IMG/VR virus record: IMGVR_UViG_3300035228_000290 | Location: 1-38,200 of that record | Source: a virus | DNA length: 38,200 nt | Reading direction: 5' to 3' (one strand) | In this document: one piece after another, positions 5,523 through 38,200 of the stretch | How the letters are laid out: each line of letters starts with the position of its first letter | Position numbering within the stretch: the first letter of the stretch is position 1 | Made by a program: the position numbers and the translations under genes | The notes under the pieces: model-generated | Databases searched by the model: none | What the model saw: only the letters and a program-made list of their open reading frames with translations | Told to the model about the DNA's origin: nothing

Positions 5523-6496
5523 TGATCAGTTAGCATATCTCTGGTGAGGAAGGCGGTTTCATCGAACTGTAGAGTAAGTTCGTACGCCGAAGGACCATAA
5601 TCATACTCATCGTTATCACCAGTGGCACCATTTCTAATGGTATTCAACTGACCGTCTGGTGTCATATTCACTGACATATTAGTCAGGACACATTTTGTAG
5701 GAAACTTCATCATGAACGATAATGTTTCGGGTTTTGACATATTGTCAGAGACCTCATTACCATTGTTTTTGTATCGAACGATGCTGAGTTGGAAGAAGTC
5801 TGGGATTGTGAGCCAGCGATCTCCTCTGCCTGCTCCACTATCGATAGCAGTAAACAAAGCACCCTGACCTCCAGAACTACCGTTTTTCCCAGGTAGCATG
5901 GATACTCTGAGTGTTTGAACAATTTTTGTAATCGCAACAACATCTTCGGGACTCCTCGGCGCTAGTCTAAAGTTAAAACTATGCTTCCTGTAATCCGTAC
6001 CTTGGAATGTTGTTTCTTCGTACGGATTAAGGATTGCTTTTGCCGTGAGTGCAGTAATGTCATTAAATGACAAGTTCGTCTGCCCCATGTTTGCGAGGTT
6101 TGCACCTGATGCTGCAACTTGACCAGCAAGTTGCGACTTGAGTTGTTCAGCAGCAGATGATATAGTATTACCAATATCGCTTGTACCGTCTTTTACACCT
6201 TTCATTACTGCCATACCACCACCGCCAACGGCGACCTGGTTATATCGCGTAGTGTAAGTTTCAACTAGACCCGCAGGTAAGTATAGATAAATTGTCTCTT
6301 TTGCTGTGCCAGAGGACGTGCGACCTGGTGTACCACCACCTACATAACTGTAGGGGTTGTTGGATTTGGAGTCATAAATATCAATTTTAAGATAATCCAT
6401 CGCCTTTGTCGGGAAGGACATATCACCACTGACTGCAGCTCTACTACCGTTTGTCGTTGTTCCTACGGGTTTTACCCTGGGAAATACTAATGCCAT
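5519..6496 (-). CDS. 48: Baseplate tail-tube cap gp48
   Basis: A 325-residue protein, first in the minus-strand pair with gp53. It has an N-terminal region with YLKIDIYD and IYLYLPAGL, a middle Ala/Gly region and a C-terminal half with HSFNFRLAPRSPEDV, FPTKCVLTNMSVNMTPDG and YELTLQFDETAFLTRD. The last motifs are those of the tail-tube-like beta domain shared by T4 gp48, gp54 and gp19. Its place directly beside gp53 and opposite gp4 is the usual cyanophage arrangement for gp48, which sits on the hub dome and starts tube polymerisation. Its ATG overlaps the ATG of gp4 on the other strand by 2 bases; no clear RBS is visible. It could be confused with gp54, but the context favours gp48. Confidence 0.8.
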   Translation of the reverse strand: MALVFPRVKPVGTTTNGSRAAVSGDMSFPTKAMDYLKIDIYDSKSNNPYSYVGGGTPGRTSSGTAKETIYLYLPAGLVETYTTRYNQVAVGGGGMAVMKGVKDGTSDIGNTISSAAEQLKSQLAGQVAASGANLANMGQTNLSFNDITALTAKAILNPYEETTFQGTDYRKHSFNFRLAPRSPEDVVAITKIVQTLRVSMLPGKNGSSGGQGALFTAIDSGAGRGDRWLTIPDFFQLSIVRYKNNGNEVSDNMSKPETLSFMMKFPTKCVLTNMSVNMTPDGQLNTIRNGATGDNDEYDYGPSAYELTLQFDETAFLTRDMLTDQ

Positions 6497-6929
6497 GAGT
6501 TATACTGGAAAATACAGACCATCACGACCCGAAAAATATAAAGGTGATCCCACAAATATTATTTATAGGAGTTTGTGGGAAAGAAAGTTCATGGTCTGGT
6601 GTGATAAGAATGATAATGTACTTGAATGGGGTTCGGAGGAGATTATCATCCCATATGTTAGCCCTGTTGATCGTCGGGTTCATCGCTATTTTCCAGACTT
6701 TTATGTCAGAGTCCGAACAAGGACTGGAAGGTATGAGAAATTCATTATCGAAGTTAAACCCAAAAAGCAGACTGCTCCGCCCAAAAAGCAAAAAAGAGTA
6801 ACCAAAAGGTATCTGACTGAGGTTAAGACATATGTCGTTAATGAAGCAAAATGGAAGGCAGCAGAGGAATACTGTGCTGATCGGTTGATGAAATTTATGA
6901 TACTCACCGAAAAAGAATTAAAGGTATGA
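6495..6929 (+). CDS. 4: Head completion protein gp4 (PD-(D/E)XK fold)
   Basis: A 144-residue homologue of T4 gp4 (head completion), which acts after DNA packaging so that tails can join. It shares the T4 pattern GKYRP..PEKYKGDP.NIIYRSLWERKF near the start, EWGSEE..IPY.SPVD, and HRYFPDFYV...FIIEVKPKKQT at residues 58-95. The last segment contains PD and E-V-K, the signature of a PD-(D/E)XK nuclease, so it may trim DNA ends. It starts back to back with gp48: both ATGs share the palindrome CATG at 6494-6497. The stop region overlaps the next gene by 4 bases. Confidence 0.88.
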   Translation: MSYTGKYRPSRPEKYKGDPTNIIYRSLWERKFMVWCDKNDNVLEWGSEEIIIPYVSPVDRRVHRYFPDFYVRVRTRTGRYEKFIIEVKPKKQTAPPKKQKRVTKRYLTEVKTYVVNEAKWKAAEEYCADRLMKFMILTEKELKV

Positions 6930-9081: not shown

Positions 9082-11682
9082 ATGGCAAAACTTAAAGTCA
9101 GAAGTTATGTTGCTGTGCGTCCTCCTCAGGACAGCACAGGACTTTCTGTGGGCTTTACTCAGAACATCCAAAGGACGAATCGCATTGGTGCCAGTTTAAC
9201 AAATATCGGTGAACAACTTACTACATTCAACACTCTATTAGAGTTTCAAACAGAACATCTAACTGACAAGGGTGATGAATCAGTAAACTTTATTAGAAAA
9301 ACTTCTAAAACTGAATTAGAACGACGTAGAGAATTAGGTCGTGAAGTTCGGAAAGATGAAGGTCGGGAGACAGATGATGCTGCTGAGGAAGAAGTAGAAG
9401 CAGAACCGACGAATGAAGACAAAGAAGCAATTAAAGAGAAGGTAAAGAAAGAGAAGGGAGGAAGACTCAAGGGATTCTTGTCTATTTTCAAAGGTATTGG
9501 TGGTCTACTACTACCAATTCTAAGTCAACTGGGACTATTTGCTGCCCTGGACTGGATAGCGAAGAATCCAGAAAAAGTCCAGAGTATGATCAACTTCATC
9601 ACAGGGTGGGTGAAGTTTGGATGGAAGATATTATCATTTGGTGTCACCTCATTTATGGATGGTGTCACCGCACTATTTGGTGGTGATCCTGATCAGTCTA
9701 CTGGTGAACGCATCTGGGAGGGCATCAAGGGCGTCGGTCAGATGTTCATTGGATTGTCTGCCATTTGGGCAGCATCCAGAGTATTTTTCCCATGGAAGTT
9801 AGTAAAAGATTTCCGTAGGTTGTCGATGTTGTTTAACATCTTTAACCAGGATGATCCAAACAAACAGAACGATAGAGATAGGAAGAAGCAAGAGAAAAGT
9901 AAAGCTAATAAGCAAAATAAAGCACGTCAACAGTCACGTACTAAGAACACATCCAAAGCAGCACGTAAGAGATACCAAAGACGATTTGGTGATAAGGCAT
10001 CAAGGAACCGCTTCAAAGGTAAGGTAGGCGGTCGCGGTGGAATGAACAAACTTACTGGCAAAGTCAGTAAGGCGATGAAGAAGTTAGGTGGGGGACTCAA
10101 AAAACTCGGAGGAGCAAAAGGATTAACTAAACTCGCTAGGGTCGGCGCGGGTGCAATGTCGATCATGTCGGGTATGGGAGCATATCAAGACGCACTGGCA
10201 GAAGGTAAGACAAATACTCAAGCAATCGGTCGTGGTGTTGGTACTGCGGCAGGTGGTCTTGCGGGTGCTGCTATTGCTACAGCACTACTCGGTCCATTCA
10301 TCGGACCTCTTGCACCTATCCTAGGATCCATGATTGGAGAATGGGCAGGTGGATGGTTGGGTGAAAAACTGGCACCTCATGTAGAGAAGGCGTTCAGTCA
10401 CATAATGAAGTGGTTTACTGAAACGCGAGAGTGGTTGAAAGCGAATACTCTCAAGACAGTTGATAATGTTCTGAAGTTCTACCAACCTATGTTGGATTGG
10501 ATCATTAACTTCATAGACTTTATACAACCAGCAATGGACTGGTTGAAGAAGTTTAATGATTTTGTATATGGTGCTGCCATTGATACTATTATCAAAGGTA
10601 TCAAGTTGGTATTGGGTGGTGCTGAGTTTATTTCTGAAAAAGCAGGACAAGCATGGAACTGGTTGACAAGTCCATTCCGAGAGGAAGGTGGACTTGTAGA
10701 ACGTGCTGAGGGTGGACCTGTTGAACGTGCTGGTGGTGGTGCTGTTAGAGCAGAGAATAGAAAGAATAGAAAATATCTCGAACCTACAGTTCTAAAACCT
10801 CAAGCAAAAGATACAGCACGAGACTGGGATAAGTTTGCTGCTGGTGGTGAATATAAGAACGGTCAGTTACCGAATGAAGCACTTACATCTATTGGTAGTG
10901 GTCATAAACTAGCCCATAGCATCGCGCCTCAATTTAAGGCGATGATGTCAGCAGCGGCGGCAGATGGTTTCGCCATGGGCAGTGCGTTCAGAATCAATTC
11001 ATCCTATAGAACATATCAAAGACAGCAAGAACTATACAATGAATTGGGACCTGGAACTGCTGCATATCCTGGAACATCTAATCATGGTTTAGGTCGTGCT
11101 GTTGACTTATGGTATACAAACGGTGCATATAGGTGGTTGAGACAGAACGCTGGTAAGTATGGATTTAGTCAGATCCCTGGATATGAGACTGATAATCCTG
11201 ATGGACATGAGGCATGGCACTGGGAGAACTTGAGTGGTGCTGGTACAACCAAGAAGGTTGCAACATCATCGGTAGCAGGTAGAAAGGTAGGACAACAGGC
11301 AAAACTGAAAGGTAAACCTGTTGTTTGGGATGGTAATAAATGGGTACCTGAAGGTTCGACTCAGCAGACTGCTGCTAAGGACAACATAAAAGGTAAAACT
11401 TTTGCATCAGAGTCAAGGAATATGGGTCAGGAAGACTCACATTTCAAAGGACTCAATAATGCAGTCAGTGGTATTAAGTATGCTGATAGTGCTGCACTAA
11501 ATAAGACTGGGAGCGTATCTGCACTTTCTTCAGCAAGCATTGGCGCATCACTTGATCGTCAAATGAGTGGTAGTTCTGCGATTGTTATGTTACAACAAGT
11601 GAATAGTCAAGGTAAGAGAACTGCATCTATGCCTGTGTTAATAACACGTCCAAACCCGTCGCCCATGATTAATCACTGCTGA
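9082..11682 (+). CDS. Large hub/tape-measure-like protein with M15 D,D-peptidase domain
   Basis: 866 residues, paralogous to the next gene. Order: coiled N-terminal segment (NIGEQLTTFNTLLEF), a highly charged stretch (residues 75-130), a hydrophobic block containing ALDWIAKNPEKVQ (about 150-165), a very basic stretch (265-360), a Gly/Ala hydrophobic segment (375-430), short repeats GGLVERAEGGPVERAGGG (about 535-555), then a VanY/M15-type zinc peptidase domain (about 600-720). The M15 signature is complete: SNHGLGRAVD with His668 and Asp675, and E-A-W-H with Glu710 and His713. The domain should cut peptide stems in peptidoglycan during DNA entry. Position between gp26/51 and the gp27-like gene is that of T4 gp29, the tape measure. 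Not a membrane protein in the ordinary sense. Confidence 0.75.
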   Translation: MAKLKVRSYVAVRPPQDSTGLSVGFTQNIQRTNRIGASLTNIGEQLTTFNTLLEFQTEHLTDKGDESVNFIRKTSKTELERRRELGREVRKDEGRETDDAAEEEVEAEPTNEDKEAIKEKVKKEKGGRLKGFLSIFKGIGGLLLPILSQLGLFAALDWIAKNPEKVQSMINFITGWVKFGWKILSFGVTSFMDGVTALFGGDPDQSTGERIWEGIKGVGQMFIGLSAIWAASRVFFPWKLVKDFRRLSMLFNIFNQDDPNKQNDRDRKKQEKSKANKQNKARQQSRTKNTSKAARKRYQRRFGDKASRNRFKGKVGGRGGMNKLTGKVSKAMKKLGGGLKKLGGAKGLTKLARVGAGAMSIMSGMGAYQDALAEGKTNTQAIGRGVGTAAGGLAGAAIATALLGPFIGPLAPILGSMIGEWAGGWLGEKLAPHVEKAFSHIMKWFTETREWLKANTLKTVDNVLKFYQPMLDWIINFIDFIQPAMDWLKKFNDFVYGAAIDTIIKGIKLVLGGAEFISEKAGQAWNWLTSPFREEGGLVERAEGGPVERAGGGAVRAENRKNRKYLEPTVLKPQAKDTARDWDKFAAGGEYKNGQLPNEALTSIGSGHKLAHSIAPQFKAMMSAAAADGFAMGSAFRINSSYRTYQRQQELYNELGPGTAAYPGTSNHGLGRAVDLWYTNGAYRWLRQNAGKYGFSQIPGYETDNPDGHEAWHWENLSGAGTTKKVATSSVAGRKVGQQAKLKGKPVVWDGNKWVPEGSTQQTAAKDNIKGKTFASESRNMGQEDSHFKGLNNAVSGIKYADSAALNKTGSVSALSSASIGASLDRQMSGSSAIVMLQQVNSQGKRTASMPVLITRPNPSPMINHC

Positions 11683-14234
11683 TGGCAAACCCTACAACAT
11701 CCGTACCTAAGGCAAAACTGTATAAGATGATCTCTAACAAGGGGATCTCTAAATCTGCAGTTACAGGAGCAAATGTAGACCAGATGGTCACAGTGCAGAA
11801 TGCTGGATTCAGGCAAATGGGATCCGCACTGAATAGTATTGGTGCGTCTGTTAATAGTATTGGTGTCATGCTACAAAGCATGAACGAGACATTCAAGGCA
11901 GGTATTACAGCACAGATTCAGGCAACTGATAACTTATTAAATGCTCAGAGAGATGTTGCAATTGATAAGGCGCAAGCAGATAGGGATGCAATAAGAGAAA
12001 AGAAGAAAGCAGATGGTAGAGAAGCAGACGATCTCGCTGAGGTAGAGGTAGAGAAACCAAACCTTGCTAGACGTGTAGGATTTGCTGCTGGATATGTCAC
12101 AGGTAAAGTTGCATCAGGCATTGCAGGATTCCTTGCTAGTCTGGGTAAACTATTCATGGGACTGGTTGGATTCGCCGTATTAGATTGGGTGGCGAAAAAT
12201 CCAGATAAAGTCCAGAAGATCATGGACGTTCTCGGGAAGATAGCGACCTTTGTATGGAACACCGCTAAGTTCTTAACAGGATTCGCACTTGGTGGTCTCT
12301 CTGATTTCATGGAGAATCCCACATCCCTGAAAGGATTGCTGGGTATTGGTAAGTTCTTCTTAGTATTAGGTGCGATCTTTGCTGGTCCTGCCCTTGCTAA
12401 GATGGGACTTAAACTGCTCCTTAAGGGTGGTATTAAGTTAGTTGTTAAACCTGTCCTTCTCCTACTGAAAAACGTAGGTAAGATGTTGTTCAACTTTGGT
12501 AAGATTGCTGCCAAAGGTGTATTCAAAGCAGGTAAGTTCTTATTTAAGAATCCAAAGGTAGCACTGGTTGGCGCTGCTGCTGTGGGTGTTGGTGCCCTGG
12601 CATATAATATGATGAAGGGTGGTGAAGGTGGAGCAGAAGAGGGAGAACCCCAAGGCACACCACAAGCACTAGGACCCACTGAGGATGATCTTGAAGGTGG
12701 TGATGATCCAATCATGGATGTTGATGCTGTTTTAGCATCATTAGACCTGGATCCTGATGAATTAGCAGATCTTCAGAAGACTGCATTAGCAGACAAGCTA
12801 ATGTATAATGCTGATGAAATCAAACAGAACGCAGAAGATGATGCAGAAGAGTCAGCATCAGAAGTTAAGGGTGCTAAAGGACCCATTGAGTCTGCACTTA
12901 ACTTCATTGTTGAACCTATCAAACAACTATGGGCAGGTGTATCTGACATCTTTGGTAAGATTGTCGGACAACTGAAAGAACAGTTTGATGGTGCAATGGG
13001 ATTCTTTGGTGAGGTATTCACCAAGGTTGGTTCATTCTTCTCACCATATGTTGATAGACTTAAGAAGTTTGGTACTGATGCGCTGCAACTATATTTTGCA
13101 CCGTTCTTCAAAATGTTTGAAGCAGTCCAGAAAATCATGGAAGTCTTTGAAAAGGATGACGATACTGGTAAGACAGAAGGTAAGTCAAAGGGTGGACGTG
13201 TACAAAGAGCAAAAGGTGGATGGATTAGTGGTCCTCAATCTGGGTATCCTGTATCCCTGGATGGTGGTGCTAGCACATCATTTATCGGTCATGGTACAGA
13301 ATGGGTAGGATATAAAGGATTTGCAGGTGGTGGTGCATTTGTTGTACCATTTGACACTCCTGCTACTAAGAGTAACCCTAGTCTCACAGGGAAGCGTATG
13401 GGTGAAGCAAAGTCAGGAGGATTTAACCTGCCAACATTCGCCAAAGGTGGTGCATATGCAGAACTTCCACAATTCTCTGAAGGTGGAAAGTTTGCCAAAG
13501 ACATGATCAAGATCCATGAAGGATTGAGATTGGATGTATATCGTGACAGTGCTGCAGAGAGGAATCTAACTGTTGGTTATGGTCACCTGATTGATTCTGG
13601 ATCACCTACAGATATTAAAGGTCTTGGTGAAGGTCAAAAGATTACACAGAGTCGTGCAAATAGTTTGTTTGATGAAGACTTCAAACATCATGCCGAGCAA
13701 GCGAAAAAGATTCCTGGTTATAATAAGGCAAGTCAACAGCAAAAAGCAGCACTAATTGACCTTACATTCAACATGGGTCCTGCCTGGTATCAGGGATTCC
13801 CTAAGTTTACGGAATACTTTAAGGCAGGCAAGTACGAGAAAGCAGGCGAAGAACTTAAAGATAGTGATTGGTATGGTCAAGTCAAAAGACGTGCTGAACC
13901 TATCATCAGTCTTATCAAAGGTAAGGGAGTTGGTGGTGCTGCACACCTGAAAGGATTAGGTGCACCACAACATAGTGCAGGTCAATCGATTACTGCATCA
14001 CAGCAAAGTCAGGATGCACGAGTTGAGACTGCTGCTGCATCTTCTGGCGGTGGTATTAAAACTGAGGTTGCTGCATTACCACCTATTAATGCTCCATCAC
14101 CACAGGATGAGGGTCCATCACCTATGCCTGCACTGGTTGGTTTGCCACAACGTGAGCAAGCGGCAACTAAATATATGATACCGAGGTTTGGTCTGATGAA
14201 CGAACACAAGACCCCACCAGCATTGTTATCATAA
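11682..14234 (+). CDS. Large hub/tape-measure-like protein with T4-type lysozyme domain
   Basis: 850 residues, overlapping the previous stop by one base (TGATG). The N-terminal half is a paralogue of the previous protein: MGSALNSIGASVNSIG coil, charged segment READDLAEVEVEKP, hydrophobic block AVLDWVAKNPDKVQ and Gly/Ala-rich segments. The C-terminal part (about 605-745) is a GH24 lysozyme: IHEGLRL with catalytic Glu613, YRD with Asp622, LTVGYGH with Thr630, then ALIDLTFNMG. It should cleave the glycan strands. In T4 this activity lies in gp5, whereas the gp5 of this phage has no lysozyme domain. Alternative reading: tail lysozyme fused to a tape-measure or hub-associated protein. The tail (750-850) is Pro/Ser/Gln-rich. 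Confidence 0.75.
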   Translation: MANPTTSVPKAKLYKMISNKGISKSAVTGANVDQMVTVQNAGFRQMGSALNSIGASVNSIGVMLQSMNETFKAGITAQIQATDNLLNAQRDVAIDKAQADRDAIREKKKADGREADDLAEVEVEKPNLARRVGFAAGYVTGKVASGIAGFLASLGKLFMGLVGFAVLDWVAKNPDKVQKIMDVLGKIATFVWNTAKFLTGFALGGLSDFMENPTSLKGLLGIGKFFLVLGAIFAGPALAKMGLKLLLKGGIKLVVKPVLLLLKNVGKMLFNFGKIAAKGVFKAGKFLFKNPKVALVGAAAVGVGALAYNMMKGGEGGAEEGEPQGTPQALGPTEDDLEGGDDPIMDVDAVLASLDLDPDELADLQKTALADKLMYNADEIKQNAEDDAEESASEVKGAKGPIESALNFIVEPIKQLWAGVSDIFGKIVGQLKEQFDGAMGFFGEVFTKVGSFFSPYVDRLKKFGTDALQLYFAPFFKMFEAVQKIMEVFEKDDDTGKTEGKSKGGRVQRAKGGWISGPQSGYPVSLDGGASTSFIGHGTEWVGYKGFAGGGAFVVPFDTPATKSNPSLTGKRMGEAKSGGFNLPTFAKGGAYAELPQFSEGGKFAKDMIKIHEGLRLDVYRDSAAERNLTVGYGHLIDSGSPTDIKGLGEGQKITQSRANSLFDEDFKHHAEQAKKIPGYNKASQQQKAALIDLTFNMGPAWYQGFPKFTEYFKAGKYEKAGEELKDSDWYGQVKRRAEPIISLIKGKGVGGAAHLKGLGAPQHSAGQSITASQQSQDARVETAAASSGGGIKTEVAALPPINAPSPQDEGPSPMPALVGLPQREQAATKYMIPRFGLMNEHKTPPALLS

Positions 14235-30392: not shown

Positions 30393-30400
30393 TATAAATA
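30393..30400 (+). promoter_or_regulatory. Late promoter, perfect TATAAATA
   Basis: TATAAATA, 25 bases before ATG 30426, with a GAGG ribosome-binding sequence at about 30411-30414. It matches the T4 late consensus and probably drives the glycine-rich fibre gene and the fibre-assembly gene after it. Confidence 0.75.
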
Positions 30401-30425: not shown

Positions 30426-31229
30426 ATGAGTACCCTTAAAGTTGCATCTGTAAAAGATCTTGCGGGACAAGGTGGATTTTCCTTCTCTAGTGGATCTATC
30501 ACTGCGAATGGAACACTGACTGTTTCCAACTTGCAAATTAATGGAAACATCACTGGTTCTTCGGGTCAGATTGTTCCGTCCCAGAGTGGACAAGGTGGTA
30601 AATATCTCACTACCGATGGTACTAACCTTGGATGGGGTACACTAGAAGCAGGTGGTGGTCCTATCTCCATCAATACCTATAATAACAGCACATCTTGGAA
30701 CAAACCAACTGGTGTAAAACGTATTTGGGTTAAATGTACTGGTGGTGGCGGAGGTGGATCAGGTTATGGTGAATCTGGTGGTGCTGGTGCACACACTGAA
30801 CAGATTATTGATGTTGCTAACATCAACTCTATCAACGTTAACGTTGGTGGTGCTGGTAACGGTGTAGGATATTCTTCTCGTGCTGGTAACGGTGGTAACT
30901 CATCGTTCGGCAGTTATTGTTCATCTGGTGGTGGACAGGGTGCTAACCGTCAACGTCAACATAATGGTGCACTGGGTGGTAGTCCTTCTCAGGGTGCTGT
31001 TCAGGTCTATGGTGGATCTGGTCACGGTCACACGAACTCACAACCAGGCATGATGTTCGGTGGATCATCCTTCTGGGGTGGTGCCTCACCAACTGCACAC
31101 TATCAACAGCAGTGGGCACATAACTATCGTTCCCATGCAGCATGGGGTGCTGGTGGTTCCTCGGGTCGTAACTCCGAAAGAGGTGGCGATGGTCGCCAAG
31201 GTTACATCGTCGTTTACAACTTCAACTGA
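30426..31229 (+). CDS. Glycine-rich tail-fibre tip / adhesin
   Basis: 267 residues. The N-terminal third is a fibre shaft (STLKVASVKDLAGQGGFSFSSGSITANGTLTVSNLQINGN). From about residue 95 on the sequence is a Gly-rich domain: WVKCTGGGGGGSGYGESGGAG, GAGNGVGYSSRAGNGGNSSFGSYC, with His, Asn, Ser and Trp between glycine runs, ending GGDGRQGYIVVYNFN. This layout resembles glycine-rich receptor-binding tips such as the gp38 adhesin type of T2-like phages. It carries six Trp and many His, possible contacts with host lipopolysaccharide or substrates for modification. The late promoter immediately upstream gives separate control. Confidence 0.75.
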   Translation: MSTLKVASVKDLAGQGGFSFSSGSITANGTLTVSNLQINGNITGSSGQIVPSQSGQGGKYLTTDGTNLGWGTLEAGGGPISINTYNNSTSWNKPTGVKRIWVKCTGGGGGGSGYGESGGAGAHTEQIIDVANINSINVNVGGAGNGVGYSSRAGNGGNSSFGSYCSSGGGQGANRQRQHNGALGGSPSQGAVQVYGGSGHGHTNSQPGMMFGGSSFWGGASPTAHYQQQWAHNYRSHAAWGAGGSSGRNSERGGDGRQGYIVVYNFN

Positions 31230-31237
31230 TAAAGCAA

Positions 31238-31816
31238 ATGAAAAGAGCACTAATTTCGTATCAAGGATTCCCTTCAGATATTGCAGAACCAGGTGAAGAG
31301 TTTGAAACTTATACTGGTCCTGGTTCTTCTTATCGTTGGGTAGATGCACCCGATGAAGTTTCATTAGATTGGAAACTTGAGTTCAACGAGTGGATTCCTA
31401 ATCATGGTCACGTTGATGTATCACAAGCAAGACTTGTCGGTTATGGTGATAGCGGTTCACAACTTGCCAGACTATTTGATGACATCAAAGCAGGTCTATT
31501 TGGTGATGCACCAAAAGAAGGTAAGTTCTACAAAGCAATTCAATCTGTTAAGGATGAAGTGCTAGAGAAGTATGGTGAGACTCCTAAGCATCCTGAAACG
31601 GGTGAAGCATGGGATCCATATGATCCATGGGATCATGATGAAAGAATTCCTGCATGGATGACTAGAGAAGAAGCAGAGGCAGAATATGGTGATGAACTTA
31701 CAAATGATGAAAAGTATAAGACCTATGTAGAATATGTTATTGAAAAAGGTGGTGAACCATGGGATGCTAACCAGCATCCTGTCCTACCAAGAGATGCGAT
31801 GCCTGAATATAACTGA
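31238..31816 (+). CDS. Putative fibre-assembly or virion protein (192 aa)
   Basis: An acidic 192-residue protein directly following the glycine-rich fibre gene. RLVGYGDSGSQLARLFDDIKAGLFGDAPKEGKFYKAIQSVKDE at about residues 66-110 resembles the G-YGD-G-QLD...FY-AIK-VKD pattern of small phage tail-associated proteins usually next to fibre genes. The last third is rich in Asp, Trp and Pro (AWDPYDPWDHDERIPAWM). It is likely a fibre chaperone or attached protein; the fold cannot be decided here. Eight bases follow the fibre gene. Confidence 0.6.
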   Translation: MKRALISYQGFPSDIAEPGEEFETYTGPGSSYRWVDAPDEVSLDWKLEFNEWIPNHGHVDVSQARLVGYGDSGSQLARLFDDIKAGLFGDAPKEGKFYKAIQSVKDEVLEKYGETPKHPETGEAWDPYDPWDHDERIPAWMTREEAEAEYGDELTNDEKYKTYVEYVIEKGGEPWDANQHPVLPRDAMPEYN

Positions 31817-31833: not shown

Positions 31834-33378
31834 ATGATTCGTAATGTAGTAATTGTAGGCGGCGGATCCGCTGGTTGGATGACTGCCGCTGCCTTTGCAA
31901 AAGTATTGCCAGAGTACAACGTAACTCTAATAGAATCCCCCGATGTTCCTGTAATAGGCGTCGGGGAATCTACTTTAGGGCAGATTAATCATTACATGCA
32001 TATCCTCGGATTGAAAGATGAGGACTGGATGAAAGAATGCTGTGCCACATATAAGGTAGGTATTAGATTCACTAATTTTTATAAGAATGATGGTACATAT
32101 TGGGACTATCCATTCGTTGATCCATCAGACGAGGCATTGCCAAATGGTCTGAAGACAATGAATTGGTTAGAAGATAAGTATCCTGATAAGTATAGACATC
32201 CCAATTGGTTTGCCCGTGCAGTTAACGGTAACACTTGGTTGATGGAGACTAATAGACTTGACCCAAATGAAATTTGGGGTAAATTTAATGGTGACTATTC
32301 ATATCATCTTGATGCTATCAAATTTGGTCAATGGTTGAGAAAGAATATATGCCATGACGTAACACATATCAAAGCACATGTTGAGGATGCTAATGTCACA
32401 GACAAAGGAATCGAAAGTATTCGACTTGATAATGGTGATGAATTGTGTGCTGATCTATTTGTTGATTGCACTGGTTTCAAATCACTCCTCCTTGAAGGAT
32501 ACCTAGGAGTAGAACACGAATCATTTAGTCATATCCTACCTAATAATAATGCAATCGCATGTAGACTGAACCATGTGGATGTGCAGAACTTTACCAATGG
32601 TACTGGTTTGAAGAATGGATGGGTGTGGAACATACCATTATGGAATAGAACTGGTACTGGATATGTGTGGTCGGATAAGTTTACTGATAAGGAGAGTGCA
32701 GAGCAAGAATTTAGAGACCATATTGAGGAGACTCATGGTATCTCTCCAGGCAACTATCAGTTAAATCATATCAAGATCAAGAATGGTAAGCATACTAAGG
32801 CATGGCATAAGAATGTTGTTGCTGTTGGTTTATCGTATGGATTCGTTGAACCATTAGAGTCCACAGGTTTATTGACAGTACATCAACAGATCTTACGTCT
32901 AATGGGAGCATTGCAGACTAGAAATGGTCTAGTTGGTAGTATTGAGAAGTCAATGTTTAATAATATTGCTGATAGAGAGATAGATGGATTTGCTGATTTT
33001 GTTTCATGGCATTATGCATTCTCAATGCGTAGGGATACCGAATACTGGAGATATGTAACTGAGGATATTGATTATAGTAAGGGTCATGGTAATATGAACC
33101 ATCCTCAAGATAATGGATTTGCACAACTAGCAGCATACAAATATATTGCTCATGACATTACTGACGAAATGGGTGGTAACCTATATGTTATTATGGGTAA
33201 CAAATACTCATGTGTTCAAGGTATTGGTACTACGTTACTAGAGCAGAAGTATGGACCACCTGATGTTGAGCAATGGTCCGAACAGGTTGACAAACATATG
33301 AAGGATGCACTACAATACAGCATGTCACTCCCCACATCGGAGGAGTATTTGAGGCAGAGAATTTATGCTGAGACGTAA
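31834..33378 (+). CDS. Flavin-dependent tryptophan halogenase
   Basis: 514 residues, the length of PrnA/RebH-type enzymes. It has an FAD-binding motif GGGSAGWM at residues 9-16, the family motif GWVWNIP near 262-268 and the STG region VEPLESTGL near 338-346, with Glu342 in place of the catalytic Glu. Lys74 in TYKVGIRF corresponds to the Lys that forms the chloramine or guides HOCl. So the key residues look intact. The enzyme should use reduced FAD, oxygen and chloride or bromide to halogenate an indole ring. No flavin reductase is seen in the window, so it may use a host one. It begins the right-hand enzyme cluster and overlaps the next gene by 14 bases. Halogenases occur in many cyanophages; their substrate is unknown. 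Confidence 0.9.
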   Translation: MIRNVVIVGGGSAGWMTAAAFAKVLPEYNVTLIESPDVPVIGVGESTLGQINHYMHILGLKDEDWMKECCATYKVGIRFTNFYKNDGTYWDYPFVDPSDEALPNGLKTMNWLEDKYPDKYRHPNWFARAVNGNTWLMETNRLDPNEIWGKFNGDYSYHLDAIKFGQWLRKNICHDVTHIKAHVEDANVTDKGIESIRLDNGDELCADLFVDCTGFKSLLLEGYLGVEHESFSHILPNNNAIACRLNHVDVQNFTNGTGLKNGWVWNIPLWNRTGTGYVWSDKFTDKESAEQEFRDHIEETHGISPGNYQLNHIKIKNGKHTKAWHKNVVAVGLSYGFVEPLESTGLLTVHQQILRLMGALQTRNGLVGSIEKSMFNNIADREIDGFADFVSWHYAFSMRRDTEYWRYVTEDIDYSKGHGNMNHPQDNGFAQLAAYKYIAHDITDEMGGNLYVIMGNKYSCVQGIGTTLLEQKYGPPDVEQWSEQVDKHMKDALQYSMSLPTSEEYLRQRIYAET

Positions 33379-34081
33379 ACCAATTCGTTTCTGGTCAACA
33401 CATCCAGGTGTAAAGGATTGTCATCCAATATATCCTGCTGCCAATCTTAAGAGGGAGATGTCTAAATGTCCCTTTGCAAGTATTCAACGACATGCTGCTA
33501 AGTGTCCTGCACTGAAACAATATGGTGCTACAGGTTTTATTATTCCTGCACCATGTGATTTCATCATTGAAACTAATGGTGATGGTAAAACAGTCAACTG
33601 GAGAGCACCAACACTGCTTGATACAAGTGATGGATTTATTAGTTCACACGATGAAACACAAGCAAAAGCATCAGCACCACCACATAGTATGGATGTAGTA
33701 ATAAAAATAGGTACAACATGGAGGTCTAGTACCCCCCACGACCTAATTTTTATTCAGTCACCCGTGCTATATAATGGTGAGGAGAGATTTACTGCTGCTA
33801 CTGGTATACTTGACCCGTCAAAAGTTCCCCAACTAAACGCTCAATTGTATTGGCATGTATTGGAGGGTGAAACTCTAGTTAAAGCAGGTACACCTTTAGT
33901 TCAATTAATTCCAATTCTTCGTAAATCACTTAGAAAGTGGGATTATGTCATCGATGATGCAACACCTGAAGACTTAAAGTTTGAGGATGCTATCAACTAC
34001 AGTATGAACTCACAGTTTGAACCATCTACACCAACTGTCCTTAATAACAATCAAAAGATTATAAAGAATCGCTATGTCTGA
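33365..34081 (+). CDS. Unknown Cys-motif protein A, halogenase neighbour (238 aa)
   Basis: Overlaps the halogenase by 14 bases. It has a Cys-rich segment near residues 35-48 (CPFASIQRHAAKCP) and a middle beta-type domain with TAATGILDP and VKAGTPLVQLIPILRK near residues 155-190. The protein at 35716 shares this plan (CP.. motif, W...GTPL..A.FY..R), so the two appear paralogous. They resemble the poorly described DUF6065-like proteins found near halogenase and 2OG-oxygenase genes. Possibly a substrate-binding or helper protein for those enzymes; function not known. Confidence 0.6.
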   Translation: MLRRKPIRFWSTHPGVKDCHPIYPAANLKREMSKCPFASIQRHAAKCPALKQYGATGFIIPAPCDFIIETNGDGKTVNWRAPTLLDTSDGFISSHDETQAKASAPPHSMDVVIKIGTTWRSSTPHDLIFIQSPVLYNGEERFTAATGILDPSKVPQLNAQLYWHVLEGETLVKAGTPLVQLIPILRKSLRKWDYVIDDATPEDLKFEDAINYSMNSQFEPSTPTVLNNNQKIIKNRYV

Positions 34082-34448
34082 ATCTATCACTGTTGATGAT
34101 CTGTTCACAAACCTTGCAAACCAACATGCAGTAACGTATGAGAAATACATTGCTGCAAAAGCACAAACTGAAAGGTTTAATGCTAAACCACAGCAGCAAG
34201 GTAATACTACATTTGATCTTAGAGAAGTACAAAGTCTCCGCGATGAGTGTATCAAATTTGAAGGTGCGCTTGATGGTCTAAATCTATACTTCACTGAGGT
34301 ATTGGGTGAAGAACCAAGAGAATATGTTGTGGTGCAAGAAAAATCGCAAGTTAAGGTTAGACTACCACTTAATAGACAAGAAGAGTTTGGTGACCTTGCT
34401 GATTGGAAACCTGAAGAAGATGCACCCAAAATTGATACTGGTGTGTGA
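34074..34448 (+). CDS. Small helical unknown protein (124 aa)
   Basis: A 124-residue protein overlapping the previous gene by 8 bases and the next by one (TGATG). Charged, helix-forming sequence (LREVQSLRDECIKFEGALDGLNLYFTEVL at about residues 47-75) suggests a coiled coil, followed by a beta-type VVVQEKSQVKVRLPL and a C-terminal acidic end. No catalytic motif. Its tight packing inside the halogenase/oxygenase operon suggests a structural or partner role there. Confidence 0.6.
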   Translation: MSESITVDDLFTNLANQHAVTYEKYIAAKAQTERFNAKPQQQGNTTFDLREVQSLRDECIKFEGALDGLNLYFTEVLGEEPREYVVVQEKSQVKVRLPLNRQEEFGDLADWKPEEDAPKIDTGV

Positions 34449-35113
34449 TGCAAGAAGAATATTTGTTTCCCACTCCTGTGTGGTGGTGTGATCTTGACAT
34501 CAATTTAGATGAACTCTATGCATCCATTAAAGACATCCAGTATAACCACGACACACAAGTACGTTCAAACGTAGGTGGTTATCAATCACAAGACTTTGAT
34601 GGGGAATATCTATTAACATGTGATGATGCTTTAGGTAATGTAGCAAGACAAGTGCAAGGATTTGCTGAAGAATGTTACGCTAGGTTTGGATCTGCTGCAA
34701 CTAAAGTTAGACTTGCTAACTTGTGGATCAATGTAAACAATGGTCCAGATTACAACCAGGTACATACACATCCAGGTGCAGTATTGTCTGGTGCTTTTTA
34801 TGTCAAGGCACCTGAAGATTCGGGTAGATTAGTATTTCATAGGGATCATGCATCTGCATTTAATTATGCATCTGTAGGTACAATGGAAGACTTTGCTATG
34901 GGTCAAGAGGATGCTGCTTTCATGTATAATCAATTCACATATCCACCTGTTGAAAATAGATTGATCATGTTCCCTGCATGGTTACCACATGGTGTGCAAA
35001 CTGGTGAGAATATTGATGAACGTATTTCTATATCATTTAACCTCATACCCTATAAAGTTGATGATAAGGTTAAATATGGTAAACTAGAGCAGAAGCAACA
35101 GTATGCAATGTGA
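34448..35113 (+). CDS. 2OG-Fe(II) oxygenase-like protein 1
   Basis: 221 residues from ATG 34448. It opens EEYLFPTPVWWCDLDI, then has the oxygenase core NLWINVNNGPDYNQVHTHPGAVLSGAFYVKAPEDSGRLVFHRD at residues 92-133 and FPAWLPHGVQTGENIDERISISFNLIPY at 175-202. Candidate ligands are His106/His108 (HTH), distal His181 and Arg of ER-ISISFN for 2-oxoglutarate. In place of the usual HxD there is HxH, as in the other two complete copies of this family here (35103 and 37322). The fold is that of the phage/bacterial 2OG-FeII_Oxy_5 type. Likely substrate unknown. Confidence 0.75.
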   Translation: MQEEYLFPTPVWWCDLDINLDELYASIKDIQYNHDTQVRSNVGGYQSQDFDGEYLLTCDDALGNVARQVQGFAEECYARFGSAATKVRLANLWINVNNGPDYNQVHTHPGAVLSGAFYVKAPEDSGRLVFHRDHASAFNYASVGTMEDFAMGQEDAAFMYNQFTYPPVENRLIMFPAWLPHGVQTGENIDERISISFNLIPYKVDDKVKYGKLEQKQQYAM

Positions 35114-35729
35114 TTTCCTATTTCCAACACCAGTTTGGCATGGTGATATTGATTTGAATGTAGATGCACTCAGTGCATTTGCATCTAATTATATGAATAA
35201 CAATCCAATGGAATATGGTAGTTATGAATCCTATTATTGTGGTGCTGATAGTTATCGGGACAGTAAGTGTGTTATCGGTTCTTTTATACGTCAAGTGGAA
35301 GACATGGCACAAGATTGTTTTCAGGAATTTGGACCAATAAACACATACTGTGAGATGCGAGACTTCTGGTTCACAATCACACCACCAGGTCAATGTATAG
35401 GTGTTCATTCACATCCAGGTGCAGTATTGGGTGGAACAACATATCTTCAGGCACCTGAAGGTGCAGGTAGTTTGTCTATTCGTCGTAACTTATTAGAGTC
35501 GCATCAATATTTGTCACTGGGTGCATATACCAGTGGTAGTCAAGGTAACACACCAGTATCATTCACATCACATTCATATCCACCACAAGTGGGTAAAATT
35601 ATTATGTTCCCTGGGTGGTGTCCACATAGTGTGGGACGTAATAACTCTGAAGAAGATAGAATGTCCCTATCATTTAATATGGGCGTCAAACATGGTCTGT
35701 ATCCGAGGTTAAACAGTGTCAACGATTAA
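35103..35729 (+). CDS. 2OG-Fe(II) oxygenase-like protein 2
   Basis: 208 residues, overlapping protein 1 by 11 bases, and clearly a diverged tandem copy of it: CDFLFPTPVWHGDIDLN at the start, CIGVHSHPGAVLGGTTYLQAPEGAGSLSI in the middle and FPGWCPHSVGRNNSEEDRMSLSFNM near the end. HSH replaces HxD, and a distal His and Arg follow. Several extra cysteines are present (about 6). Probably has a different substrate from protein 1, or works in sequence with it. Confidence 0.72.
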   Translation: MQCDFLFPTPVWHGDIDLNVDALSAFASNYMNNNPMEYGSYESYYCGADSYRDSKCVIGSFIRQVEDMAQDCFQEFGPINTYCEMRDFWFTITPPGQCIGVHSHPGAVLGGTTYLQAPEGAGSLSIRRNLLESHQYLSLGAYTSGSQGNTPVSFTSHSYPPQVGKIIMFPGWCPHSVGRNNSEEDRMSLSFNMGVKHGLYPRLNSVND

Positions 35730-36417
35730 TTACATTTCAGTTATACCTGATGACCATTATGAAGATTATCAGTCTCCTACATTTGCTGAAGACTTTGAAA
35801 TAACACCTACCCCAGCATTTGCTGATGGTATGAAAACACATGATCATAAATCATGTCCAGCACACAAAGAATGGTGCAAAAATAGATGGACATTTTATAT
35901 GCCATTCGATTTACATCTTAGAGCAATACCACAAGAAGGTAAGATGGTCGTCTCTGATAGTATCGAGAATAGTGAGTTTGGTAGATTGATAGAGATCAAT
36001 GAGAACTGGTGGAATGAGGATTTACCTGAGTTACAAGTAAAATATAATACTCTATTCTGGACTGATATTAAGAGTGGAGTATGGATAGAATATACTGGAC
36101 ATCCTTCACTCGCTGCACATGGAATGACTGTCGTCCCAGGTACATTTCCAATCACAGCATGGATGAGAAGTTTACCTATTGGATTGGTACTTAATAGACT
36201 AAGTGAAGATCTATGGATCAAACGTGGCACACCATTGTTTCATGCACGTTTCTACGATAAGCGTGGATCTATATTCAAACTACGTCGTAAAGCACCACCA
36301 AAGGAGAAGATCGAATCTATCATACAAGATAAACGATTGAAGAATTTTATGCGGTTTGCATCATGGGATCTAATTAAGAAACGGGAGAGTAAATGTCCAT
36401 TCAAAAATCTATTTTAG
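35716..36417 (+). CDS. Unknown Cys-motif protein B, paralogue of protein A (233 aa)
   Basis: Start GTG 35716, with GAGG at 35705-35708. It holds a CPAHKEWCKNRWTFYMPFDLHLRAIP segment (about 47-72) similar in plan to protein A, then AHGMTVVPGTFPITAWMRSLPIGLVLNRLSEDLWIKRGTPLFHARFY at about 134-180, and ends with a second Cys motif (ESKCPFKNLF). It overlaps the JmjC/cupin gene by 25 bases. The two related proteins A and B occur on either side of the oxygenase pair, which suggests that each pairs with an enzyme. Function unknown. Confidence 0.6.
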   Translation: MSTINYISVIPDDHYEDYQSPTFAEDFEITPTPAFADGMKTHDHKSCPAHKEWCKNRWTFYMPFDLHLRAIPQEGKMVVSDSIENSEFGRLIEINENWWNEDLPELQVKYNTLFWTDIKSGVWIEYTGHPSLAAHGMTVVPGTFPITAWMRSLPIGLVLNRLSEDLWIKRGTPLFHARFYDKRGSIFKLRRKAPPKEKIESIIQDKRLKNFMRFASWDLIKKRESKCPFKNLF

Positions 36418-37085
36418 ATCGACACCCATTTCTTATTGGTGACTATCCAGCAGTATATCCTTCTGGGTATAGTAATCCAGAACAACTTGTGCAATGGAAG
36501 GATGTTCAAACATGTCTCAACAATCCATGGTGGTATAATGTTGAGATGTTGAATAGTAGCAATATGAAGGTACCAATGCCTACGGTACCTGAACAATGGC
36601 ATGAAAAGATGGTGCCCGAGAAGTCAGTTATATTTGATCTTGCTAATAGTAATAATACATTTGTTATTGGTAAGTATGGGCATCATAATCGTGCTGTAGA
36701 AGATCTTTTAGATGAGATAGAAGCACAGTTCTATGTTAATTGTGATGCACATGTGTATGGTGCACTAGGTGGTGCATCATCATTTAAGATACATTGGGAT
36801 CAACCAGCGAACCTAATCATCCAGATTGAGGGTGAAACTGATTGGACAGTGTATAATGAGAGATGTAGCACACTCATCAAATATGATGGGTTTCCATATA
36901 ACCCCACAGAGGATGAAGTGACACCTGCTATCCAGCATAAAATGTTGCCTGGTGATGTTCTATACATCCCTGCACGTAGTTATCATTGTGCACGTCCACA
37001 TGATAGAAGGTTATCTCTTAGTATACCTATGTGGCACGATCCAGAGTATCAAAGTGACAGAAAAGAACATCAATTGATGTTATAA
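36393..37085 (+). CDS. JmjC/cupin_8-type 2OG hydroxylase
   Basis: 230 residues. The cupin/JmjC motif FKIHWDQPANLIIQIEGETDWTVY places His134 and Asp136 as iron ligands, and MLPGDVLYIPARSYHCARPHDRRLSLSIPMW supplies the distal His198. This matches the ribosomal-oxygenase/NO66-type hydroxylase family, whose known members hydroxylate Arg or His side chains of proteins. It overlaps the previous gene by 25 bases. The substrate might be a virion or host protein, but the sequence does not show which. Confidence 0.8.
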   Translation: MSIQKSILDRHPFLIGDYPAVYPSGYSNPEQLVQWKDVQTCLNNPWWYNVEMLNSSNMKVPMPTVPEQWHEKMVPEKSVIFDLANSNNTFVIGKYGHHNRAVEDLLDEIEAQFYVNCDAHVYGALGGASSFKIHWDQPANLIIQIEGETDWTVYNERCSTLIKYDGFPYNPTEDEVTPAIQHKMLPGDVLYIPARSYHCARPHDRRLSLSIPMWHDPEYQSDRKEHQLML

Positions 37086-37114
37086 TTAATGATCATGAAC
37101 TCCTGACATACCAC

Positions 37115-37142
37115 TTGACCGCTGCCCCATTAAATATAAAAT
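37115..37142 (+). promoter_or_regulatory. Promoter candidate before the 53-aa gene
   Basis: TTGACC (37115-37120), 16 bases, TAAAAT (37137-37142), a fair sigma70 match. The overlapping TTAAATA (37130-37136) also resembles the late motif. GGAG at 37153-37156 lies 7 bases before ATG 37164. The gap 37086-37163 shows nothing else. Confidence 0.4.
37130..37136 (+). promoter_or_regulatory. Late-promoter-like motif TTAAATA
   Basis: TTAAATA, one mismatch to the CTAAATA variant found elsewhere, 27 bases before the small ORF ATG. It overlaps the sigma70-like candidate, so only one of the two may be real. Confidence 0.3.
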
Positions 37143-37163
37143 AGGTATCTCTGGAGATTCCCC

Positions 37164-37325
37164 ATGTTCCTCAAGACTGCACTACTAGACTCCGAAGAGC
37201 GTATTTTTCTCCGTCAAGCATTGTTTTGCTTGCAGAAGAAAATGTATGAGCGCCAAGGCGAATTATCCCCTCATCAAACAAATCTAATCAACTCTGTTGC
37301 TGACAAACTACATTTGAAACAATGA
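37164..37325 (+). CDS. Small unknown protein (53 aa)
   Basis: A 53-residue ORF (MFLKTALLDSEERIFLRQAL, then FCLQKKMYERQGELSPHQ) with a good RBS, GGAG at 37153-37156, and a stop overlapping the next start (ATGA). The pattern of Leu/Phe/Lys in helix-compatible spacing suggests a small helical protein. No family recognised. Its own promoter candidate and coupling with the next oxygenase argue for a real gene. Confidence 0.6.
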   Translation: MFLKTALLDSEERIFLRQALFCLQKKMYERQGELSPHQTNLINSVADKLHLKQ

Positions 37326-37945
37326 CTGTATTCCCTTTATTCTCTTCTCCTGTATATGTTGAAACATATAATATTGAGGATGAAGACATCCAAGGTATTA
37401 TTAATGAAGAGTATGAAGAGTATCCTAAAAGGAGAGATGGGGCACAATCAGTAAATACTCAGATCTTACAAAAGTATCCACGTTTGCATGCTATTTGTCA
37501 AGAACATGCAGAGAAGTTGTGCTATGATGTCCTGTCTATACAGGATAGAGTTACACCAAAGATTGTATGCTCATGGGTGAATAAGCATCGTCAAGATGAA
37601 CGTGCTAATCGTCATGGTCACTCTAACAGTATGTTCACTGGATGTTTATATGTTCAGTGTTCACCTGACTGTGGTAATCTGATGTTTGAGGCATCATATA
37701 ATCACTGCACATGGACAACTGGTATGATTGAACCACCAGTATATGAGGACACTATGCTTAACTCTAGAGTGTGGCAGATTGTACCTGAGCGTGGCATGAT
37801 TGCTATGTTCCCTAATCATGTGGATCATCTAACTGGATATAATGAGTCCAATGATGACCGTTATAGTATTGGATTTAATATTATGCTTGAAGGTGACTTC
37901 AGCGAGAAAACTCGTGACCTTGTAATTGAAATTAAAAATGTCTGA
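37322..37945 (+). CDS. 2OG-Fe(II) oxygenase-like protein 3
   Basis: 207 residues. It begins VFPLFSSPVYVETYNIEDEDI, carries SWVNKHRQDERANRHGHSNSMFTGCLYVQCSPDCGNLMFEA near residues 85-125 and MIAMFPNHVDHLTGYNESNDDRYSIGFNIML near 160-190. This is the same oxygenase family as proteins 1 and 2 with HGH in place of HxD and a distal His in VDH. Closest in the window to the truncated copy that follows, so they seem to be a tandem duplication. Substrate unknown. Confidence 0.7.
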   Translation: MTVFPLFSSPVYVETYNIEDEDIQGIINEEYEEYPKRRDGAQSVNTQILQKYPRLHAICQEHAEKLCYDVLSIQDRVTPKIVCSWVNKHRQDERANRHGHSNSMFTGCLYVQCSPDCGNLMFEASYNHCTWTTGMIEPPVYEDTMLNSRVWQIVPERGMIAMFPNHVDHLTGYNESNDDRYSIGFNIMLEGDFSEKTRDLVIEIKNV

Positions 37946-38200
37946 TTTCCCTGGATCTGGTGGTGCTCTATTTCCACTATTTTCTCAACCATTATATTGT
38001 TGTGGTGATAAACTAACAGATAGTATGGTTGATTACGTTATCAATCAAGAGTTCTATCCTGACCCTATGGCACACAATGGGCAGAACACAAAGAATCAGA
38101 TGTTATTAGATGGATGCCCTGAAATGAAGGCATTAATAGAGAAACATCTGAATTTTTATGTGTATAACATTCTTAGCATTGATAGAAAATATGTGCTAAA
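37938..38200 (+). CDS. 2OG-Fe(II) oxygenase-like protein 4 (3' end outside window)
   Basis: ATG 37938 overlaps the previous stop by 8 bases and the frame stays open to the window end (87 codons visible). It begins SDFPGSGGALFPLFSQPLYC and continues with the N-terminal half of the same family as the previous gene: the LFPLFS.P.Y start, DYVINQEFYPDPMAHNGQNTKNQML and a helix ending YNILSID match it. The catalytic half is outside the window. Confidence 0.6.
   Translation, partial: MSDFPGSGGALFPLFSQPLYCCGDKLTDSMVDYVINQEFYPDPMAHNGQNTKNQMLLDGCPEMKALIEKHLNFYVYNILSIDRKYVL

Follow-up and report, generated by a model that had tools for sequence, protein, structure and literature searches.

A gene block for a flavin-dependent halogenase and predicted hydroxylases is coupled to the receptor-binding fibre tip of marine phages: a candidate tip-modification cassette

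Why would a phage place a flavin-dependent halogenase and a series of iron-dependent oxygenases directly behind the tip of its tail fibre? This question is raised by the last part of a 38.2-kb stretch of T4-like cyanophage DNA (the window; IMG/VR virus record IMGVR_UViG_3300035228_000290), in which baseplate and tail genes are followed by tail fibres and then by an enzyme region. The original prediction, made on reading this DNA, held that the enzymes directly follow a glycine-rich adhesin and its presumed assembly gene, and this arrangement was found as described: the adhesin at 30426-31229 is real, the gene at 31238-31816 starts 8 nt later, and the halogenase gene at 31834-33378 comes next, all on the plus strand. 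Here, we show that the coupling of tip and halogenase is near-obligate, that the block is co-inherited and that its catalytic residues are intact. The reading that we favour, and consider rather likely, is that the block forms a fibre-tip modification cassette, with a halogenase and hydroxylases that decorate the tip in the course of assembly.

The original prediction would have lost ground had the cluster occurred independently of the adhesin genes. We ran this comparison in both directions and found that the full cluster is not independent of the adhesin. Starting from the tip, 2.9 million viral contigs were scanned with a tip alignment and 80 loci were kept, 7 of which have under 1 kb of sequence beyond the tips. 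In 72 of the 73 contigs with at least 1 kb downstream, a halogenase was located at a distance of 30-2300 bp and the gene order was canonical, with few variants; the sole exception (L284) was the weakest match. When the tips were clustered at 80% identity, the halogenase was present in 36 of 37 clusters, and all 12 GenBank phage records with the tip type of the window also have a halogenase. Starting from the halogenase, two scans, of which the second kept the best 80, showed that at least 595 viral stretches encode relatives; they yielded 147 halogenases on 108 contigs, which formed 95 clusters at 80% identity, 78 of them with five upstream genes (genes across the loci were called as simple tilings of the longest open reading frames, ORFs). 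Glycine-rich or tip-family ORFs were concentrated at ranks -2 to -5 from the halogenase (25-40%), falling to 0-5% between ranks -7 and -10, and their share downstream did not exceed 9%. Such an ORF was found within the five upstream genes in 45 of the 78 clusters, whereas same-strand genes picked at random from these contigs gave 12.9 ± 2.7 (at most 21 over 200 draws). In addition, 2-oxoglutarate (2OG)-Fe(II) oxygenase or JmjC genes were detected no more than five genes from the halogenase in 66 of the 78 clusters. Cellular halogenase homologues in bacterial genomes had a glycine-rich neighbour in 1 of 41 cases and other module genes in none of the 41. Finally, 80 cyanophage contigs carrying nrdA (ribonucleotide reductase; 974 kb) contained one halogenase and zero such tips; since these contigs are close relatives of each other and not diversity-matched, the weight of the comparison rests on the same-contig random genes and the cellular halogenases.

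The same gene order was also present in the isolates S-WAM1, P-RSM6, S-CREM1, Syn9, Syn10, S-RIM44, P-TIM40, Sf-CH3, Sf-FR1 and S-SZBM1. One or more tip genes are followed by a relative of 31238-31816, one or two halogenases, a relative of the gene at 33365-34081 (phrog_7084, here p7084), 2OG oxygenases and a JmjC gene, with some members missing in some of the phages. This repetition in isolates indicates that the arrangement is not due to chance. In S-RIM44, Sf-CH3 and Sf-FR1, the module follows a structural gene of 10-12 kb and immediately precedes the neck gene; thus, tip and enzymes share a different genome position together. Furthermore, halogenases were found beside quite different glycine-rich tips in siphovirus-like contigs (e.g. 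L013, L014 and L027).

Co-inheritance was then assessed by mirror-tree comparison of 23 deduplicated phages, using one paralogue per locus. The correlation between tip and halogenase was 0.87, compared with 0.36 between the adjacent shaft and the halogenase (partial correlation 0.89, permutation p 0.0005), and the mutual correlations of the tip, the 31238-type gene, the last halogenase, p7084, the small protein of the module and the JmjC gene ranged from 0.77 to 0.94. The JmjC gene lies 5 kb from the tip and correlated with it at 0.80-0.83, whereas the shaft, 1 kb away, reached only 0.54-0.64, so linkage distance alone is an insufficient explanation. Placed on a 49-row halogenase tree, the fibre-linked state required 4 changes, compared with 15.7 in shuffles, and well supported branches forced at least two changes; the halogenase of L031, which belongs to the P-SSM2 clade, joined the tip-chaperone neighbourhood independently. 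Taken together, these sequence comparisons show that the tip and the enzymes are inherited as one cassette, and that halogenases have been recruited to fibre loci more than once, with at least two such changes.

Linkage of this kind could also arise by hitch-hiking, with the end of the fibre operon acting as an insertion hotspot and the enzymes as cargo that is swapped with the tips by recombination and has no functional tie to them. The boundary of the module is indeed a recombination boundary between shaft and tip, and the Pelagibacter phage HTVC008M has a 2OG/phytanoyl cluster between its fibre and neck genes with no adjacent halogenase. We nevertheless consider hitch-hiking unlikely, because the order of tip, chaperone, halogenase, p7084, small protein, 2OG oxygenase and JmjC gene is fixed over highly diverged genomes, a second-clade halogenase was recruited to the same place independently at least once, and the same partners stand beside different glycine-rich tips. 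The HTVC008M cluster (L046, 2031-4904) consists of two 2OG and two phytanoyl dioxygenase genes and a ferrochelatase-like gene on the reverse strand, exactly between the fibre and neck genes, and the halogenase of this phage sits between the terminase subunits.

To return to the enzyme that is coupled to the tip, the protein encoded by 31834-33378 matched the tryptophan halogenase family (PF04820, E 1e-100), and its best solved relative was VirX1 of cyanophage Syn10 (6qgm, E 2e-119). Among 16 sequences, the GxGxxG motif that binds flavin adenine dinucleotide (FAD) was invariant at G9, G11 and G14, as was the WxWxIP motif at W263-x-W265-x-x-P268. K74 and E342, the equivalents of K79 and E346 in PrnA, were also invariant among these sequences, and they aligned with VirX1 and PyrH. 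When aligned to the window enzyme, most tryptophan halogenases end near residue 407, PrnA reaches residue 508, and VirX1 reaches residue 512, the C-terminus. By sequence, 31834-33378 is thus assigned to the VirX1-type flavin-dependent halogenases, with its catalytic landmarks intact. VirX1 is without the helical lid over the tryptophan pocket and has a wide, open active site (PMC7948982, PMC8407142); in vitro, it accepts bulky substrates and many small heteroaromatics and prefers iodide to bromide and bromide to chloride (PMC8407142). Because of this preference for iodide, a search for mass shifts on fibre peptides needs +125.9 Da beside the shifts of +34 and +78 Da. Arrays of up to five diverse halogenases were observed among 2OG and p7084-type genes in L120, L089, L092, L096 and L116; some are convergent to opposite-strand genes. 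The arrayed halogenases might be site-specific enzymes working in series.

The halogenase family classically uses free tryptophan, and the halogenase and oxygenases could therefore act on a small molecule, such as a host metabolite, a free tryptophan product, a signal or an antibiotic, with the fibre linkage being positional only. Host metabolites were suggested as substrates in PMC10452541, and antibiotic protection is put forward in PMC9964418 and, with reference to the Syn9 genome paper, in PMC2984593. The range of small heteroaromatics taken by VirX1 in vitro fits this explanation, as does the presence of second-clade halogenases among metabolic genes. However, action on a small molecule hardly explains a near-obligate and co-evolving coupling to the tip; in the gene set, we identified no transporter, non-ribosomal peptide synthetase, polyketide synthase or biosynthetic gene of another kind, and the lid of the free-tryptophan pocket is missing from VirX1 (PMC7948982). 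We therefore regard a small-molecule role as improbable.

The glycine-rich protein encoded by 30426-31229 matched PF21722 and phrog_863. A search of its sequence profile against the PDB gave no match, but structure comparison succeeded. The model, built using 45 relatives, had a predicted local distance difference test score (pLDDT) of 85 and matched the fibre of cyanophage Pam3 (PDB 7ypx) with a Z score of 21.7 over 179 aa (2.3 Å, 29% identity) and the tail tip of Bxb1 with a Z score of 15.5. Gp38 of Syn9 was the top match among the viral structures in BFVD. The predicted structure has the tumour necrosis factor (TNF)-like and glycine-rich domains of receptor-binding fibres of the Pam3 gp24 type, and 30426-31229 is accordingly identified as a Pam3-type receptor-binding fibre tip. 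In Pam3, the TNF-like and glycine-rich module handles receptor recognition, the distal tip is hypervariable, and the gene that follows codes for its chaperone (PMC9608196). The 31238-type gene (phrog_1787) directly follows the adhesins in nearly all loci, and from this position between tip and halogenase we presume that 31238-31816 has a Tfa/gp25-like chaperone or assembly role; the profile search detected no significant PDB match, including to the Pam3 chaperone, and no Pfam match was found. Most related loci (L211-L283) have two or three tandem tip genes, compared with a single recognisable one in the window; such tandem copies may permit receptor specificity to be exchanged.

A late-promoter-like sequence, TATAAATA at 30393-30400 on the plus strand, lies approximately 26 nt before the start of the adhesin and fits the late motif NATAAATA of cyanomyoviruses (PMC2984593). 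Downstream of TATAAATA, the genes from adhesin to JmjC are separated by intergenic gaps of at most 17 nt. Across the whole window, the late motif was seen 9 times versus 8.2 expected, with no enrichment above chance, so it is informative only through its position across loci. Across the loci, it was present before 22 of 84 first tips, 19 of 89 chaperone-type genes and 8 of the 61 halogenases following them, and was rare before the other enzyme genes (0 of 41 second halogenases, 0 of 81 p7084 genes, 0 of 65 JmjC genes and 1 of 365 2OG genes). Read most simply, these motifs point to a late operon that would yield the enzymes together with the tip.

A coupling to receptor specificity would likewise be expected if the enzymes modified a host surface molecule (lipopolysaccharide, S-layer or porin) or the receptor, for example against superinfection or against re-adsorption of progeny to debris, and the original prediction had named a host surface molecule as an alternative target. 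However, late co-expression with assembly genes, as suggested by the motifs, points to virion assembly, and FAD- and 2OG-dependent enzymes require cytoplasmic cofactors. In addition, reading the ORF translations without the use of a predictor brought neither signal peptides nor membrane segments to notice. On balance, we find action on the host surface quite improbable.

The hydroxylase part of the cassette consists of 2OG-Fe(II) oxygenases and a JmjC protein. Oxygenases A (34445-35113, E 4e-21), B (35103-35729, E 5e-20) and C (37322-37945, E 5e-17) scored 75.7, 72.3 and 62.6 bits, respectively, with PF13759 (cut-off 27). Oxygenase D (37926-38198) is cut by the window end and matched C with 34 bits; its intact homologue in L004 (7611-8255) has 214 aa. 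In 82 relatives, the residues H107-x-H109...H182...R193 were kept at 100, 93, 100 and 98%, and the PF13759 oxygenases of the window (34445-35729 and 37322-37945) have HxH in place of the usual HxD/E of Fe(II)/2OG enzymes. The protein encoded by 36393-37085 matched JmjC_2 with 66.3 bits (cut-off 22, E 2e-18), and the triad H134-x-D136...H198 was found at 100% in 60 relatives; it is predicted to be a JmjC_2 hydroxylase of the ribosomal-oxygenase type with the triad of the fold intact. Between the end of the JmjC gene at 37085 and the start of oxygenase C at 37322 is a 236-nt gap (37086-37321) with a 53-codon ORF, where the near relative L004 (halogenase 85% identical) has an extra 2OG-type gene (6294-6797). 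Oxygenases A and B are 76-77% identical between the window and L004, and C is 96% identical. Together with the extra gene, this divergence hints at rapid turnover.

Roles unconnected with the fibre have been proposed for such oxygenases, namely AlkB-like DNA repair and lowering of cellular 2-oxoglutarate with an effect on NtcA signalling (PMC3037559, PMC2984593). The published arguments for repair rest on other 2OG genes, beside uvsX/uvsY, and the proximity of 2OG/JmjC genes to most halogenase clusters, together with the covariation of the JmjC gene with the tip, also speaks against this explanation, which we hold to be highly improbable for the oxygenases studied here.

If the cassette modifies the tip, the following sequence of events can be proposed. 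Late in infection, the tip gene, its presumed chaperone and the enzymes would be transcribed together. During synthesis and folding of the tip, the open-pocketed halogenase would halogenate aromatic residues (Trp, Tyr or His), and the 2OG and JmjC enzymes would hydroxylate other residues (e.g. conserved His, Asn or Arg). The modification could then alter binding to the host receptor or stability in seawater. Candidate sites conserved in 81 tips are W91 (96%), Y149 (100%), Y164 (93%) and H179, H202, H225 and H237 (90-100%); these residues are candidates only, and folding or metal binding may equally explain their conservation. The proposal in the original prediction that enzymes decorate fibre proteins is strengthened by the coupling to the tip, and from genome context, folds and conserved residues we infer the modification itself, with the tip as substrate and with the target residues, chemistry and benefit outlined above.

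Several observations weigh against modification of the tip. A modified fibre, or activity of VirX1 on a protein, has not been seen. Single members of the block occur elsewhere (JmjC beside cobS or psbA, and p7084 beside ribonucleotide reductase), a second halogenase clade is found near psbA, tRNA and sugar genes, and some VirX1-type halogenases have no fibre nearby (L022-L024 and L029, which are linked to ribonucleotide reductase, and S-B64). The halogenase matches included no record of Pam3, whose tip is homologous, so the fold does not require halogenation. The loci share ancestry and their counts are not all independent, the tip alignment (A3) was based on adhesins that neighbour halogenases, and the fibre end of T4-like phages is a flexible region that also collects unrelated genes. 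We put at about even the chance of the broader claim that a widespread family of marine phages covalently halogenates (probably with bromine or iodine) and hydroxylates its own tip via a dedicated, co-inherited cassette, which would be the native role of VirX1-type enzymes and would provide the first halogenated virion protein.

The remaining genes of the block complete the inventory given in the original prediction: a halogenase, two Cys proteins, four 2OG-Fe(II) oxygenases (one cut) and a JmjC protein are all present within 6.4 kb, and the genes overlap as it described, neighbours doing so by 4-25 nt from 31834 to 37085. The two Cys proteins, 33365-34081 and 35716-36417 (phrog_17480), both exist as well, and the relationship claimed for them proved to be distant and only probable (E 2e-4, probability 48% in profile comparison). 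The model of 33365-34081 had a pLDDT of 78.8; its top Foldseek matches were all dUTPases, and structure comparison gave a VIA Z score of 10.1 over 119 aa, which predicts a dUTPase (beta-clip) fold. No dUTPase family was found in Pfam at E ≤ 0.1, and the PHROG assignment was phrog_7084; since the fold fits and sequence membership fails, we claim neither dUTPase membership nor a nucleotide function. A single sub-threshold match of the PxxWYK/p7084 family to DUF6065 (E 0.013) was likewise not taken up. Relatives are located beside halogenases or ribonucleotide reductase and are also present in tailed viruses of haloarchaea; those in L040 (HRTV-8 gp36), L041, L009 and L017 share a near-invariant Cys and a predicted dUTPase fold with the window member, for which this fold was modelled. 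The small protein (34074-34448, 124 aa), which was not named in the original prediction, is a conserved member of the set; its family, defined in this analysis, has 63 distinct members and is probably helical, and Pfam and PHROG scans gave only noise. A fibre-chaperone reading of this ORF is thus unsupported, and a precursor like those of ribosomally synthesized and post-translationally modified peptides (RiPPs) was ruled out by its conservation as a probably helical family across modules, with no leader or peptidase seen. Outside the block, two neighbouring proteins of 866 and 850 aa are encoded near the baseplate genes (9082-14234). A VanY D-Ala-D-Ala carboxypeptidase domain is present in one of them and a phage lysozyme domain in the other.

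Halogenases and 2OG oxygenases of cyanophages have so far been classed as auxiliary metabolic genes with roles in host metabolism, antibiotic protection or DNA repair, and the published proposals (PMC9964418, PMC2984593, PMC10452541, PMC3037559) leave the coupling to the tip unexplained. A full-text literature search, with most subscription papers outside its reach, found no proposal of fibre modification by these enzymes. If the tip is modified, the placement of these genes would be explained and widely found 'auxiliary metabolic genes' would need re-annotation. Tip modification would also add a new layer of chemical diversification to host recognition by oceanic phages, supply natural protein halogenases for biotechnology and be the natural role of VirX1, a much-studied biocatalyst. 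The hypothesis is testable on phages already in culture, among them S-CREM1, for whose virions 14 proteins are reported from mass spectrometry (PMC9964418).

Known systems resemble parts of the proposed cassette. MibH and other flavin-dependent halogenases modify peptide-bound Trp in RiPP pathways, which sets a precedent for the action of such an enzyme on a Trp that is part of a polypeptide; unlike those pathways, the gene set of the window had no identified RiPP precursor, leader-recognition or export gene. Phage glycosyltransferases (e.g. PMC11256854) are phage enzymes proposed to decorate a structural protein, although they add a sugar rather than halogen or hydroxyl and act on the capsid rather than on a receptor-binding tip. 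In Mimivirus, virus-encoded enzymes, including a 2OG lysyl hydroxylase, modify a virus-encoded repetitive collagen-like protein (PMC9546862); however, this is a giant virus of eukaryotes that hydroxylates and glucosylates Lys, has no halogenase and does not target a receptor-binding phage tip. The Pam3 fibre gp24, whose chaperone is gp25 (PMC9608196), shares its TNF-like and glycine-rich architecture with the window tip, behind which a short, presumed chaperone gene is likewise located; Pam3 differs in that it gave no halogenase match, and no sequence link was found between 31238-31816 and gp25. In the sources consulted on VirX1, the primary VirX1 paper not among them, no discussion of a linkage to the fibre tip was found. 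VirX1 has been studied only with small synthetic substrates; it is the closest solved relative of the window halogenase over its full length, and the gene that encodes it is itself part of this fibre-linked module in Syn9/Syn10.

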